The notes beneath the pieces were generated by a model that saw only the letters and a program-made list of their open reading frames with translations, ran no database searches and had not been told where the DNA came from. Shown here piece after piece: positions 17,464 through 40,800 of a stretch of 47,614 bases of DNA. This DNA is from Melioribacteraceae bacterium (GTDB lineage Bacteria > Bacteroidota > Ignavibacteria > Ignavibacteriales > Melioribacteraceae), in NCBI GenBank assembly GCA_021740785.1, contig JAIOZI010000037.1:1-47614 (forward strand), in the 5' to 3' direction. A program made the translations under genes and the position numbers. How positions within the stretch are numbered: position 1 is the stretch's first letter; every line of letters begins with the position of its first letter.

Positions 17464-17787
17464 GTCTAGCCTCTGCTTTTTTTAATGAAAAACATATCAT
17501 TGTTAAAACAGCCTACTTATATAGGTACTACTTACCTACGTTACACTAACTCGTATTTTGAATGAGCGAGATAAATCTCGCTCTACATTTTTCACACAGA
17601 CTCTTTATGGCACTATTCAACACCAACTTTTGCGGTTTTTATTGTTTCAAAAAAAATACATTGGGATATTATGTTTTGTGTGTGTATCAATACTTGTCTC
17701 AAACCTCCTAATACCCTAATTATATCCATTAAAATAATTAGAGTATCCATAAAAGTCAAGCTGGTACTAAAGGATCAAAGTCAATGC
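17464..17787. other. Upstream region of the secreted propeller gene, with a hairpin repeat
   Basis: No gene seen. A perfect 8-bp hairpin gagcgaga/tctcgctc lies at 17564-17583. Its flanks (cgttacactaactcgtattt on the left, ctctacatttttcacacaga then a stretch like cactattcaacacc on the right) resemble the outer arms of the composite element at 20981-21380. It is probably a shorter, internally deleted relative of that element. Confidence 0.6.
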
Positions 17788-20198: not shown

Positions 20199-20849
20199 TT
20201 AGTCAAGACTCTTAAAAGTAAACCACCAATCATAACCTTCTTTTGATTTCAATCTTTCTGCCGCAGTTGCAACATCTTTTGGCGGAGGAATAATAACTTT
20301 ATCTCCGATAATTTCATTGTTAGGCCAATTCTCCGGCATTGCCACCTTGTTAGCATCGGAAATTTGAAGAGCTTTTAATGCACGCAGAACCTCATCAATT
20401 TGCCTTCCTATTTCCTGTGGATAGTAAATCATTAATCGAATAATTCCGTTAGGATCAATTATAAATACTGCTCGCACAGTATTTGTTCCTTTGCCGGGAT
20501 GAATCATACCAAGTTTCATTGCAGTCCGTCCCATATCATCGGCGATAACCGGAAATGGAATTCTTGTATCGAGTTTTTCTTCAATCCATTCAACCCATTT
20601 AATATGAGAGAAAACCTGATCGATCGAATGACCTAATAATTCCGCATTCAATTTCTTGAACTCATCGTTTCTTTTTGCAAATGCTACGAATTCAGTCGTG
20701 CATACAGGTGTAAAATCACCGGGATGACTAAATAATACGAGCCACTTACCTTCATAATCTTTTGGAATATTTTTAATTCCGTGTGTCGTTTGTACTTCCA
20801 TCTCCGGAAGCTTTTCGCCAAGTAAAGGAATGCCGCTTTTGTCTTCCAT
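20199..20849 (-). CDS. Peroxiredoxin, Prx6/1-Cys type
   Basis: 216 residues, cytoplasmic. The peroxidatic cysteine is in the signature [13 protein letters not shown], and the Prx6-type C-terminal domain follows. Relatives in archaea and many bacteria carry a resolving cysteine pair near the C-terminus (around YDWWFC); here the sequence is GYDWWFTFK and no second cysteine exists in the protein, so it should act as a true 1-Cys enzyme needing an external thiol. It reduces hydrogen peroxide and alkyl hydroperoxides. A near-perfect ribosome binding site (AAGGAGGT) precedes the ATG. It is first in the minus-strand operon ending with the AlkD-like glycosylase, a plausible damage-defence grouping. 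Confidence 0.95.
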
Positions 20850-21043
20850 TATTACCTCCTTGTAATTTTAAAAATCATATAAATGATCTGATCTATCTTA
20901 GCAAAATTGATAACTTAAAAATATGGTTTTAGATATCCTTTTCCAATTATGATTTGGATGCAGATCATCCTATAGATTAATAACTCACGTTACGCAAACT
21001 CATATTTAAAATTGCCACGACCTTTGGAGGCTGTGTGAAAATT

Positions 21044-21312
21044 GTAGAGCCCGTCTGCTCATCAGAGTCCGACGGGCGGAATCCCGACAGGGTGCCTCGG
21101 TGTCCAATGTTGTCAACTTAAGATAAAAAATGTGGCTAAAGCCACATTGGGTTTAATTTTTTAGCCCGTTGCCTAAAGGCAACGGCTATTATGGTTTTAT
21201 AATAGCCGTTCGCTTTAGCGAACGGGTTTAATATCCGAAAAATCATTCGGCTTTAGCCGCATTCTTAGGTGTACTAAGTTGACAGCATTGCTCGGTGTCA
21301 GACGGGCTCTAC
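21044..21312. repeat. Hairpin element interrupted by the MITE-like insertion
   Basis: Arms gtagagcccgtctg (21044-21057) and its perfect reverse complement cagacgggctctac (21299-21312). Removing 21105-21290 and one copy of the 9-bp repeat restores a compact hairpin with a loop of about 55 bases that itself contains gtccgacgggcggaatcccgac-like sub-structure (described by position 21067-21088). Confidence 0.75.
21105..21290. mobile_element. 186-bp MITE-like element with 9-bp target duplication
   Basis: Terminal inverted repeats caatgttgtcaactta (21105-21120) and taagttgacagcattg (21275-21290) match at 15 of 16 positions. Directly outside lie identical 9-bp repeats, ctcggtgtc (21096-21104 and 21291-21299). 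The interior is four short palindromes built around ctaaag/ctttag: 21130-21147, 21166-21185, 21206-21225 and 21248-21259, plus ggctattat/ataatagcc. No ORF, so it would need a transposase in trans. Confidence 0.8.
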
Positions 21313-21438
21313 AATTAACATTTTCACACAAGCTCTAACTATCGGGGTCATTCAATACAAACTCTGCGTAACGTGAGTTAATAATTTTAATTGGACAATA
21401 GATTTTGCTATTTTTGTATAAATGAATTTGGAGCATTA

Positions 21439-21651
21439 ATGATTAGTAAAGAGTTGCTGGATATTCTCTGCTGCCCGGAATCGAAAGCCGATCTTGTTTT
21501 AGATGGTGAATTTCTAGTTTCAACAGATAAAGCCACTCGCAGAAGATACAGAATTGAAGATGATATCCCGGTTATGCTGATTGATGATTCAGAAGTATTG
21601 AGTGAAGATGAATGGAAGGAAATAATGAAAAAATACGGGAAAGAAGTTTAA
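21439..21651 (+). CDS. Trm112-like (UPF0434) small protein
   Basis: 70 residues beginning MISKELLDILCCPESKADLV and containing DDIPVMLIDD, the typical core of Trm112/YcaR-like proteins. In eukaryotes and archaea Trm112 activates methyltransferases; the bacterial role is poorly known. The zinc ligands are reduced to the CC pair; the second Cys pair of eukaryotic Trm112 is absent. I chose ATG 21439 because it starts at the conserved family N-terminus and has GGAG at 21430-21433. A longer TTG-initiated frame from 21391 would run into promoter DNA. It is first in the run leading to clpX. Confidence 0.85.
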   Translation: MISKELLDILCCPESKADLVLDGEFLVSTDKATRRRYRIEDDIPVMLIDDSEVLSEDEWKEIMKKYGKEV

Positions 21652-36522: not shown

Positions 36523-36583
36523 AGCTTTCGTGGCAGCCGTCCTTATTAACCCAGATTTTCTATTGGAAAATCTGCCCTTCGAG

Positions 36584-36726
36584 CCGACAATTTGTAAGTT
36601 GAGAAATATCAGATACTTAGCCCTATAGAAATTTTGGAATTCGTTATTTGAGTAAAATATTTTAATAAAACATTTTATGAGCAGCCAACGGCAAAAAATT
36701 CATTTCCAATGATTTTTTTGGGATTA
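36584..36726. repeat. Dispersed intergenic repeat, family A, copy 3 (internally deleted)
   Basis: Begins with ccgacaatttgtaag exactly as copy 2 and ends with gggatta. Compared with copy 1 it lacks about 43 bases between gagtaaaatat and tttaataaaac, removing the inner cttacaaattgtcgg arm and half of the 13-bp stem. Confidence 0.75.
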
Positions 36727-37834: not shown

Positions 37835-40800
37835 ATGAAAAAATTAGTAATAATAATATTGCTGGCAATTTCATTATATATTTCAGCACAGGAAAAACCG
37901 CAGGAAAATCCACCGGTTTATATTGCTTTCTTATGGCACATGCATCAGCCGATTTACTGGCCGTACGAATCGATTGTTCAAACATACGAGAACAACCGCT
38001 ACAGTTATAACGTACTGGAAATTCATACTTCGCGCACCGGTCCCTACACCGATTGGCCGAAGAATGCTGTTTACAAAGGAATAAATGCCGGGCTGCCTCA
38101 TCTCGGCGCACAAGTGAGTTTTTCGGGATCATTGATTGAAAATCTGAATAATTTGGAAGATTATGGAGTAAGTAATTTTCAAAATTGGAAATCTAGCTGG
38201 AATGATATAATTAATCAAGAAACATCGCTTGGCAATCCGAGAATTGACATGGTTGCTTTTGGTTATCATCATCCTTTAATGGGATTGATTACCTATGATG
38301 ATATAAGGAAACAGATACAATCTCACAAACAATTTTTTTCTGATAATTTCACCGGTGAATATTCAAAGGGAATATTCCCGCCCGAAAATGCTTTTGCACC
38401 ACACATCATTCCGGCTTTAGTTGATGAGGGAATTGAATGGGTTCTGGTTGATAACATACATTTTGAACGTGCTGCTCAGTCTTATCCTTATAGTACAAGT
38501 GGTGCGATCTACGAGCCCAATAAATCCGATCAATTAAATCCGAATCCCAATGATTGGGTTCAATTGAATAATCTATATGCACCAACACCGGTCTCGGCTA
38601 AGTGGTCGCGCCAGTCGCATTATGTTGAATACGTTGACCCGGAAACGGGTGAGTCATCTCGCATAATTGCAGTTCCTACAGACACATATTTGGGAAATGA
38701 GGATGGGCGCGGCGGTTTCGGTGCACTACAATATGAGTCGGTAATGAGTCAGCTCGAAGGTTATAACACGGATGCCGAACACCCGATATTAATAGTGCTT
38801 CATCATGATGGCGATAATTACGACGGCGGTTCCGATGGATATTACGGCGCAAATTTTCAAGCTTTCGTAGATTGGCTGCAAGAGAATCCGGACCGGTTTG
38901 TTGCAACAACTGTGCAGGATTACCTGGAAATGTATCCACCCGATCCAAGTGATGTTATCCATATCGAAAAAGGAAGCTGGTTAGGTGCTGACGGCGGTGA
39001 TCCAGAATTTAAAAAATGGCTCGGTGATCCGAATAGTGAAAATTATTCACCTGACCATAATAGCTGGGGTGTAGTAACTGCAGCAAAAAATTATGTTAAT
39101 ACTGCGGAGAGTATCGATCCAAACAATGCGGACACAAAAAATGCAATAAAGTATTTACTAAATTCGGAAGCTTCCGACTATTGGTATTGGGATTTTTCAT
39201 TAGACGGTATTTGGGATGCACATCCGACACGTGCTTCAAATCAAGCAGTTCAATTTGCTCAGCAAGTTTATACAGGGGGAGAAGAGGAAGTGCCGCCAAC
39301 GATTTTTATGCCGCAGCGCGAACCTTACAACCCAGGCGGAACAGAATGGGGAATTTCACAATCCAGTGACTTTAAAATTTGGACGTACGTTTATGATGTC
39401 AGCGGTTTGCAGTCAGTTACTTTAAAGTACCGGTTGGATAATGATGGAGTAAATTCACTTTTGTCAGATCACAATGAAACTTATTCAGGCGGTTCGGATG
39501 TGGGTGATTGGGTTGAGTTGAATATGGCTGGTATTGAAATTACATCTCAGACCAATCCGATGCCGCTGGTAAAAGCCGAAGAATTTTCCGCTCAAATTAC
39601 CGGGCAGAATAATTCTCTTATTGATTACTATGTAGAAGCTGTTGATTCTTACGGCAATATTTCAAAATCACCAATTAATCATGTTTGGATTGGTGAAGGC
39701 GGCGGATCGACCGGTAATCCCGATGTATCATGGGAGCCGGTAAACCCAACAAACGATGATTTAATTACAATCACCGTTACGAATGCAGGTCAGAGTGCAA
39801 AACTTCACTGGGGCGTTAATAACAACGGCGGATCATGGGTAACGCCGGATGAAGTGTATTGGACGGACGGAACTGTGCCGTTTGATGGAAGTCCCGCGGT
39901 TGAATCACCGTTTACCGGACCTGATACAGCCGGAACATTAAAACTCGAACTTGGACCGTTTAACAATGATGCGCAGACAGTTAACCGGATTGCATTTGTT
40001 ATTCATTACGATGACGATTCATGGGATAACAATAACGGCAGCGACTATCATATTTATCTCGGTGATGATGTTCCAAGTGAATTTGTTATGGACGGAGAAG
40101 TCGATGCATCGGCTGTTAAAGTAATTAGCAATGATGGAATTGATTTGTATTTGGCGTGGGAAGAACCGATTTTGTATATCGCTACACAAAGCGCTTCCTC
40201 ACAAGCTAATGATATTTTTGTATTCTTTGCCGATGGACAGAATGAAATGATTGATGCGCCATGGGGTAAATCCGGTTTTGTTGCCGGATGGTCGGCTTAC
40301 ATGGCAAATGAAAGTGATAATAATTACAATAGCTGGTATGATAATACAGGTACAACCGGCATTGCCGCCGGAAATGTTTTGGAAGGTACAATCCATATTG
40401 AAGAAGAGTTTGGATTTATACCGGCTGAAATTTTTCTTTCTATTAGTGAGTACCAAACTGCGGATAATGGTGCGTTAATCGGACAATTGCCTGCAGGTAA
40501 CAACGACGGTAATATCGACCCGGATGAACTCTTTGAATTCAATTTTGTAATTACAGATTTGAAAAATTATGATAATGCCCCGACTGAATTTAGTTTATTG
40601 CAGAACTACCCGAATCCCTTCAACCCAATTACAACGATTAAATATACAATTCCTACCGCTGTAGGGGACGAAAATTTTCGTCCCCTACAAATGGTTATAT
40701 TAAAAGTGTTTGATATGCTTGGAAGAGAAGTAACAACCCTAGTTAACAAACCAATGCAGCCAGGCAAATACCAGGTAACCTTTGACGGCAGCAAACTTTC

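Follow-up and report, generated by a model that had tools for sequence, protein, structure and literature searches.

Nested elements with IS4-type and IS1182-type ends around a tetrad of small palindromes in a Melioribacteraceae genome

The locus and the 186-bp unit

We have analysed a stretch of 47,614 nucleotides (the window), which is contig C99 of a 4.85-Mb draft genome. The site under study lies between an ORF on the minus strand (20199-20849), which from its sequence we take to be peroxiredoxin-like, and a small ORF at 21391-21651. Three layers of inverted repeats are placed here one inside the other (Table 1), and when all of them were recomputed from the letters, the coordinates given in the earlier note were exact base for base. 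The outer inverted repeats are identical at 16 of 16 positions and the arms of the hairpin within them at 14 of 14. The hairpin is interrupted by a unit of 186 bp, whose terminal repeats CAATGTTGTCAACTTA and CAATGCTGTCAACTTA match at 15 of 16 positions and whose flanking 9-mers are the same on both sides (9/9). The unit had been described as devoid of an ORF, and indeed no ORF of at least 80 aa overlaps it. It had also been described as built of palindromes with a shared CTAAAG/CTTTAG centre; we found four of these, spaced 37, 40 and 38 bp. When arms of at least 5 bp are demanded, the 47.6-kb window holds three CTNNAG palindromes, all within the unit.

Table 1. Positions of the nested features in the window
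Feature	Position	Strand	Remarks
Layer 1, left outer 16-bp terminal inverted repeat, TAACTCACGTTACGCA	20981..20996	+	recurs in C34, C98, C21
Layer 1, right outer 16-bp terminal inverted repeat	21365..21380	-	recomputed
Layer 2, hairpin MITE, IS1182-type by its ends, AGGCTGTGTGAAAAT (on the right AGCTTGTGTGAAAAT); holds the unit	21028..21334	+	same ends at L191
Layer-2 hairpin, left 14-bp arm	21044..21057	+	recomputed
Layer-2 hairpin, right 14-bp arm	21299..21312	-	its first base also ends the right-hand target copy
Target-site duplication, left copy, CTCGGTGTC	21096..21104	+	
Target-site duplication, right copy, CTCGGTGTC	21291..21299	+	
Layer 3, 186-bp unit (type A), IS4-type MITE by ends and duplication	21105..21290	+	11 copies in own genome; IS4-family ends
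Unit, left terminal inverted repeat	21105..21120	+	
Unit, right terminal inverted repeat	21275..21290	-	
Palindrome P1, aatgtggCTAAAGccacatt	21129..21148	.	
Palindrome P2, ccgttgcCTAAAGgcaacgg, 9-bp arms, 2-nt loop	21166..21185	.	split by a layer-2 element in the C14 copy
Palindrome P3, ccgttcgCTTTAGcgaacgg	21206..21225	.	
Palindrome P4, cggCTTTAGccg	21248..21259	.	

Predicted folding is far stronger than in shuffled sequences, both for the unit as DNA (z = -9.3; 0 of 200 shuffles equal it) and for the whole nest as RNA (z = -14; 0 of 100 shuffles). An Rfam scan of the window gave no family reaching its gathering score, and a tRNA search of the window found none. With AACTCACG taken as the end, the outer elements in C99, C34 and L051 may, as judged by eye, have 3-bp duplications (AAT, ATT and ATT).

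Further repeats lie elsewhere in the window. Pieces resembling the longer sister of the unit (type B, see below) are found at 1-142, 1722-1913 and 36543-36726, and also at 2254-2378 and 2854-2985. The contig starts inside such a piece, so the assembly probably broke at a type B repeat. A 300-bp direct repeat, 98% identical, occupies 1910-2209 and 2510-2809, 600 bp apart, and related repeats of 42 bp and 65 bp surround it. At about 17530-17610 an end of the outer type, apparently decayed, precedes a layer-2 fragment; by eye, the two may be the remains of another nest. A perfect palindrome with 14-bp arms, tgtaggggacgaaaATtttcgtcccctaca, lies at 40660-40689.

The earlier note had considered the unit to be MITE-like, and it proved to be a genuine mobile element, present in several places and accompanied by target duplications. 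A DNA search with positions 21105-21290 returned 11 copies in the own genome (82-100% identity), so the objection that no other copies might exist falls away. They sit in C99, C106, C108, C40, C98, C100 (two copies), C83, C63, C14 and C54; some are cut by contig ends, the C14 copy is split, and uninterrupted copies measure 185-206 bp. Type B, found in C3, C18 and C21, is longer (461-675 bp), with the same ends as the unit and a different body. In the family, 18 of 79 genomes have a match to the unit. Among 27 loci fetched from these relatives, IS4 ends are present at eight, in four genomes (G001, G002, G004 and G005), and absent from 19. As a side observation, the copies at L004, L005, L006, L008 and L011 carry an extra palindrome of about 20 bp, GCCTGTCTGCCGATAGGCAGGC, within an outer palindrome of the unit, and the copy at C100:5629 has a palindrome of similar sequence as its target.

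Target duplications of 9 bp, like terminal inverted repeats, are typical of DDE transposition and not of single-strand HUH transposition, and for IS4-type MITEs the duplications range from about 9 to 12 bp. We compared the flanks of 20 two-ended copies, namely seven of type A and three of type B from the own genome, five from relatives and five IS copies. The 9-bp duplication seen in the window held up in this set: as drawn, the flanks match at 8 or more of 9 positions in seven copies, or in ten when a shift of one base is allowed, and 0 of 380 mismatched pairs reach 7/9. The type B copy of C18 has a perfect 9-bp duplication. The other ten copies (C108, C40, C3, four of the five units in relatives and three of the five IS copies) show none, which may be due to decay or to recombination among copies.

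The earlier note had proposed to look for a transposase gene flanked by such terminal repeats; relatives have one, and it belongs to the IS4 family. In the own genome, the exact unit end in C106 adjoins the last 38 codons of a transposase gene, where the contig of this draft assembly stops. At four of four loci in relatives (L070-L073), the same transposase C-terminus is followed by the unit end, exact at three and two bases off at one. Longer transposase genes lie between two unit ends in G079, with one altered base in each end, and in G132, where one end is exact, the contig beginning there, and the other is two bases off. The IS copies of G036 and G024 have the ends CAATGCTGTCAGGTTA on both sides (AGGTTA for AACTTA), and so does that of G014, with two further changes on one side. 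By eye, the G036 IS (L103, 611-2051) is flanked by 39-bp direct repeats holding a palindrome, instead of a 9-bp duplication.

Of five proteins scanned, four score above the cut-off of the NCBIfam IS4-family model NF033592, and the fifth, from a partial gene of G100, reaches 113.3 bits against a cut-off of 115, short by 1.7 bits. A Pfam scan of a 173-aa IS4 fragment gave no match, and NCBIfam matched it. The motif Y-2-R-3-E-6-K, the IS4 signature, is present in all six transposases checked. In G100, two partial transposase genes lie head to head, each adjoining an exact end; we rejected this locus as a plain IS on account of that arrangement, and its flanks match at 4-5 of 9 positions. PF01609 matched two transposases in the own genome, in C48 and C54, and these were rejected as partners as well, since no unit, layer-2 or outer end with up to 3 mismatches lies in the stretch read around them. 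A complete IS4-family transposase was not found in the own draft genome, a DNA search of that genome with the C106 IS end matched itself only, and no plain IS was seen to carry the exact 16-bp end on each side. Considering that the ends CAATGCTGTCAACTTA are those of IS4-family ISs in relatives, and considering the duplication, the unit classifies as an IS4-type MITE.

Layer 2 and the two nesting orders

With the joined flanks of the unit as a query, 47 matches were found in the own genome, mostly partial. The element that they outline, layer 2, has the ends AGGCTGTGTGAAAAT and a length of 117-193 bp if uninterrupted. We examined 16 two-ended copies, kept from 23 pairs after seven weak-ended pairs had been dropped by eye (two each at L053 and L054, and one each at L073, L129 and L130). 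Four of the 16 sit in a palindrome whose 6-bp apex is perfectly repeated (CTTTAG, CTAAAG, CTTTAG and CTGAAG), and in two more the apex repeat matches at 5 of 6 positions. The intact form of the palindromes entered by layer 2 is present in other copies of the unit. On this evidence, layer 2 inserts into the apex of small CTNNAG palindromes.

Matches to the IS1182 family occur in 40 of the 79 family genomes, and 30 loci were fetched. At one of these 30, L191, both ends are exact: the IS has the 13-bp ends of layer 2 on both sides, and its transposase scores above the cut-off of NF033551. Elsewhere, both ends are two bases off at L197, and one end is found, one base off, at L198. Based on the ends shared with L191, layer 2 is classified as an IS1182-type MITE, without a transposase gene. 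L191 itself sits in a palindrome with a CTTAAG apex (AACCCACGA-CTTAAG and CTTAAG-TCGTGGGTT). As CTTAAG is its own reverse complement, a direct and an inverted 6-bp repeat are indistinguishable at this locus, and the direct apex repeat is therefore argued from the copies in C14, C81, C35 and G002.

In the window, the apex repeat of layer 2 is poor (2/6), and its insertion into layer 1 is accordingly argued from the arrangements in C34, C21 and C98. C34 and the window are alike in the outer ends and in the right part of layer 2 and different in the left part. The empty target place postulated in the earlier note is present in the layer-2 copies of C34, C81, C48 and C37, which are paralogous copies. 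The proposed order of events, hairpin first and mobile unit second, holds at this locus, but it fails as a general history, because the reverse is found in C14, G002 and G004, and with one end in C54. On the one hand, the unit lies within layer 2 in C99 and C98. On the other hand, a layer-2 element lies inside palindrome P2 of the unit in C14, with the apex CTTTAG duplicated, and a single layer-2 end is seen at the same place of P2 in C54. Likewise, G002 has a layer-2 element inside the unit with CTAAAG duplicated, and G004 a weaker one without duplication. From both nesting orders, it appears that the two MITE families insert into each other.

In C99, C98, C40 and C83 the unit occupies one shared place of layer 2, adjoining AGACGGGCTC as judged by eye. 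This identity of position in four layer-2 copies would also be expected if layer 2 and the unit had moved as one composite, in which case the four occupied places would be copies of a few events and not a favoured site; moreover, the duplication is visible in two of the four, as the second 9-mer is missing from C40 and the contig ends within the C83 copy. We nevertheless consider this unlikely, since two of the four units point one way and two the other, and since the duplicated 9-mers differ (CTCGGTGTC and CTCGGCTGC), which together indicate at least two independent insertion events. By the sequence of these four copies, layer 2 has received the unit at this one place on more than one occasion.

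The palindrome tetrad and one clade of Y1 genes

The tetrad of CTNNAG palindromes, with a spacing of 37-40 bp, is present in four of the five type A copies listed, and the fifth has three palindromes. The own genome has three genes for Y1 (IS200-like) transposases, and one of them, in C100, is preceded by a tetrad of like order and about 40-bp spacing and followed by three of its four palindromes. Among the 19 unit loci of relatives without IS4 ends, five have a Y1 gene 58-83% identical to that of C100, and a sixth has 22 Y1 codons at the contig end. The eight unit loci with IS4 ends have no Y1 gene.

For a comparison that did not start from the palindromes, loci were fetched by protein family, and CTNNAG palindromes with arms of at least 5 bp were counted within up to 600 bp per side. 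The 32 loci fetched (L154-L185) are a subset of the many more matches listed; L159, L160, L169 and L173 gave no alignment to the C100 protein and were excluded ahead of the counts, which left 28. The clade of C100 was defined by at least 55% identity to its protein, a boundary set after the identities had been seen, the next value below being 43%. CTNNAG palindromes adjoin 9 of the 12 loci of this clade versus 0 of the 16 others (p = 3e-5), and 8 of 11 when C100, the source of the idea, is left out (p = 7e-5). L172, L174 and L175 were also matches of the unit search (as L079, L080 and L088), so the evidence from Y1 loci and that from the unit search overlap.

The size of the loop divides the loci further. 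Palindromes with a 2-nt loop and any apex lie beside 11 of the 12 clade loci versus 3 of the 16 others, and those with a 3-nt loop beside none of the 12 versus 11 of the 16. Over all 28 loci, there are 50 palindromes with 2-nt and 36 with 3-nt loops, versus 0.22 and 0.88 in shuffled flanks. On a tree of the 28 Y1 proteins, the 2-nt and the 3-nt labels need three changes each, as against means of 9.6 and 9.0 after shuffling (0 of 500 as low); the label "none" shows no clustering on the same tree (70 of 500 shuffles as low). These results show an association of the palindromes with one Y1 clade. Type B elements carry other loops: that of C18 has three palindromes with 3-nt loops and one with 4 nt, and that of C3 combines a single 3-nt loop with loops of 2, 4 and 5 nt. 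The 3-nt-loop palindromes of both are similar to the ones that lie next to Y1 genes of the other clade, among them the own gene in C14. As a separate observation, the region of C64:6563-6901 (L154) holds a Y1 gene of the C100 clade amid palindromes with ATTTAT/ATAAAT apices, and about 0.9 kb away a layer-2 copy sits in such half-palindromes.

The nest might instead be an ordinary stack of degenerate IS remnants, with palindromes that arose by internal duplication and resemble the Y1 hairpins by convergence. The unit does match its own reverse complement at 69%, as a large imperfect palindrome, and two of the palindromes could therefore be copies of the other two. However, 42 CTNNAG palindromes lie in 16.5 kb beside 15 clade Y1 loci (three of them chosen via the unit search), versus none in 17.4 kb beside the 16 other Y1 loci and none in 15 partly overlapping control loci (48.7 kb). 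The tetrad upstream of the C100 gene repeats the apex and the spacing, the relatives' units keep the apex despite other arm sequences, and L079, L080, L082, L088 and L095 contradict a tetrad that lies always inside IS4 ends and never beside a Y1 gene. A mere stack of remnants is thus improbable. It is more improbable still that a Y1 transposase moves the unit as an IS200/IS605- or REPIN-like element whose IS4-like ends are passive: its body does match Y1-associated hairpins, and HUH transposases use hairpin substrates in the known systems described in the accessible parts of PMC6006769, but the 9-bp duplications and terminal inverted repeats indicate DDE transposition, and the type B element of C18, with the same ends and other palindromes, is also perfectly duplicated at its target.

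The C100 Y1 protein has 144 aa, the sequence YIRNQEEHH and the HUH motif DHLH. It reaches 66.8 bits with the IS200 model NF033573 (cut-off 55), and with NF047646 it does not score as the TnpAREP type (39.1 bits, cut-off 80). Subclass 1.2 of TnpAY1 proteins has been described by Y---Q--HH, DH[IV]H and about 148 aa, and the same paper lists no REPs for it and, as a rule, no IS200 terminal structures (PMC6006769). By its motifs, the C100 protein would belong to this subclass, its HUH motif being one letter from the published one. The C100 lineage disagrees with the published absence of REPs and terminal structures, because 2-nt-loop palindromes lie beside nearly all of the loci of its clade. Neither GTAG nor CTAC occurs in the unit.

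Interpretation and related systems

Based on these results, we consider that three mobile elements are nested at this locus, an IS4-type unit within an IS1182-type layer 2, and that the body of the unit is a Y1-type tetrad that was probably captured; we assign this reading a probability of roughly 0.85. An IS4-family DDE transposase recognising the ends CAATGCTGTCAACTTA would move the unit in trans, as the ends and the duplications suggest, and the unit entered layer 2 with a duplication of 9 bp. Layer 2 itself is a non-autonomous IS1182-type element that inserts at the apex of small palindromes. The hairpin tetrad, of the type found beside one clade of Y1 (IS200/IS605-like, HUH) transposases, was probably captured between IS4 ends, and such enclosure may have happened on two or more occasions, once for type A and once for type B. 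The Y1 protein would recognise the palindromes. With its tetrad, the unit offers layer-2 elements a place to land, and layer 2 holds a site where the unit lands by preference, so that each family inserts into the other. The unit thus looks like a chimera of IS4 ends and a Y1-type hairpin tetrad, which is itself bait for IS1182-type MITEs.

A bolder version can be put forward tentatively, and we regard it as possible and far less secure. In this version, the chimera is used by two unrelated machineries: the IS4 ends serve for movement, and the tetrad is a true substrate of the subclass 1.2 Y1 protein. IS4 ends would have captured arrays at least twice, type A with 2-nt loops and type B with mainly 3-nt loops, matching two Y1 clades, and the hairpins would attract IS1182-type MITEs. 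The dual mobility of the unit and the function of the tetrad are what we infer from the arrangement of the sequences. No cellular role is needed to account for the nest, and the predicted folding would allow effects on transcripts.

Several parts of this picture are already known separately, namely MITEs, the targeting of stem-loops by IS1182-family elements and REP palindromes beside Y1 genes. The unit resembles the IS4 family (NF033592) and its MITEs in its ends, in duplications of 8-11 bp and in the relatives' DDE transposase with the Y-2-R-3-E-6-K motif, but its body is a Y1-type hairpin tetrad and not a shrunken transposase gene. Layer 2 resembles IS1272, which has been placed in the IS1182 family and targets stem-loops, in having IS1182-family ends and in landing in stem-loops. 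However, in the accessible sections of that work IS1272 replaces the stem-loop without a duplication, whereas layer 2 keeps the stem, duplicates the 6-bp apex (in four of 16 copies) and has no transposase; pathway c of the published model predicts duplication of the loop (PMC5678879).

As in REP/REPIN systems with TnpAREP, clusters of small palindromes flank a Y1 gene and are also found elsewhere in the genome (PMC6006769, PMC3733652, as far as their accessible text goes). The differences are that the unit has no GTAG tag and that the Y1 protein has the motif of subclass 1.2, listed without REPs in the part of PMC6006769 seen. QMITE2 of Coxiella burnetii, as described in the available part of PMC5896051, is likewise a terminal-repeat MITE with short duplications that holds a REP serving another element as a landing site. 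It differs in that its REP is of the GTAG type and its invader is IS1111, whereas here a non-GTAG tetrad and two MITE families are involved, with insertion in both directions. Other IS families also choose REP palindromes; a survey of them covers IS3, IS110, IS4, IS256 and IS5, and the term IS1182 is absent from its available text (PMC1525189). The main text of a review of prokaryotic MITEs is without the words "nested", "REPIN", "IS4" or "IS1182" (PMC10969869). In the mainly open-access literature searched, we found no description of a chimera of IS4 ends and a Y1 tetrad.

In summary, what is new here is the interlocking of these parts, in that IS4 ends appear to be joined to a Y1-type tetrad and two MITE families insert into each other. 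The split in loop size between the Y1 clades provides a candidate DNA substrate for Y1 proteins of the subclass 1.2 type. Our study suggests that hairpin repeats might spread without a transposase of their own, carried inside an IS4-type element.
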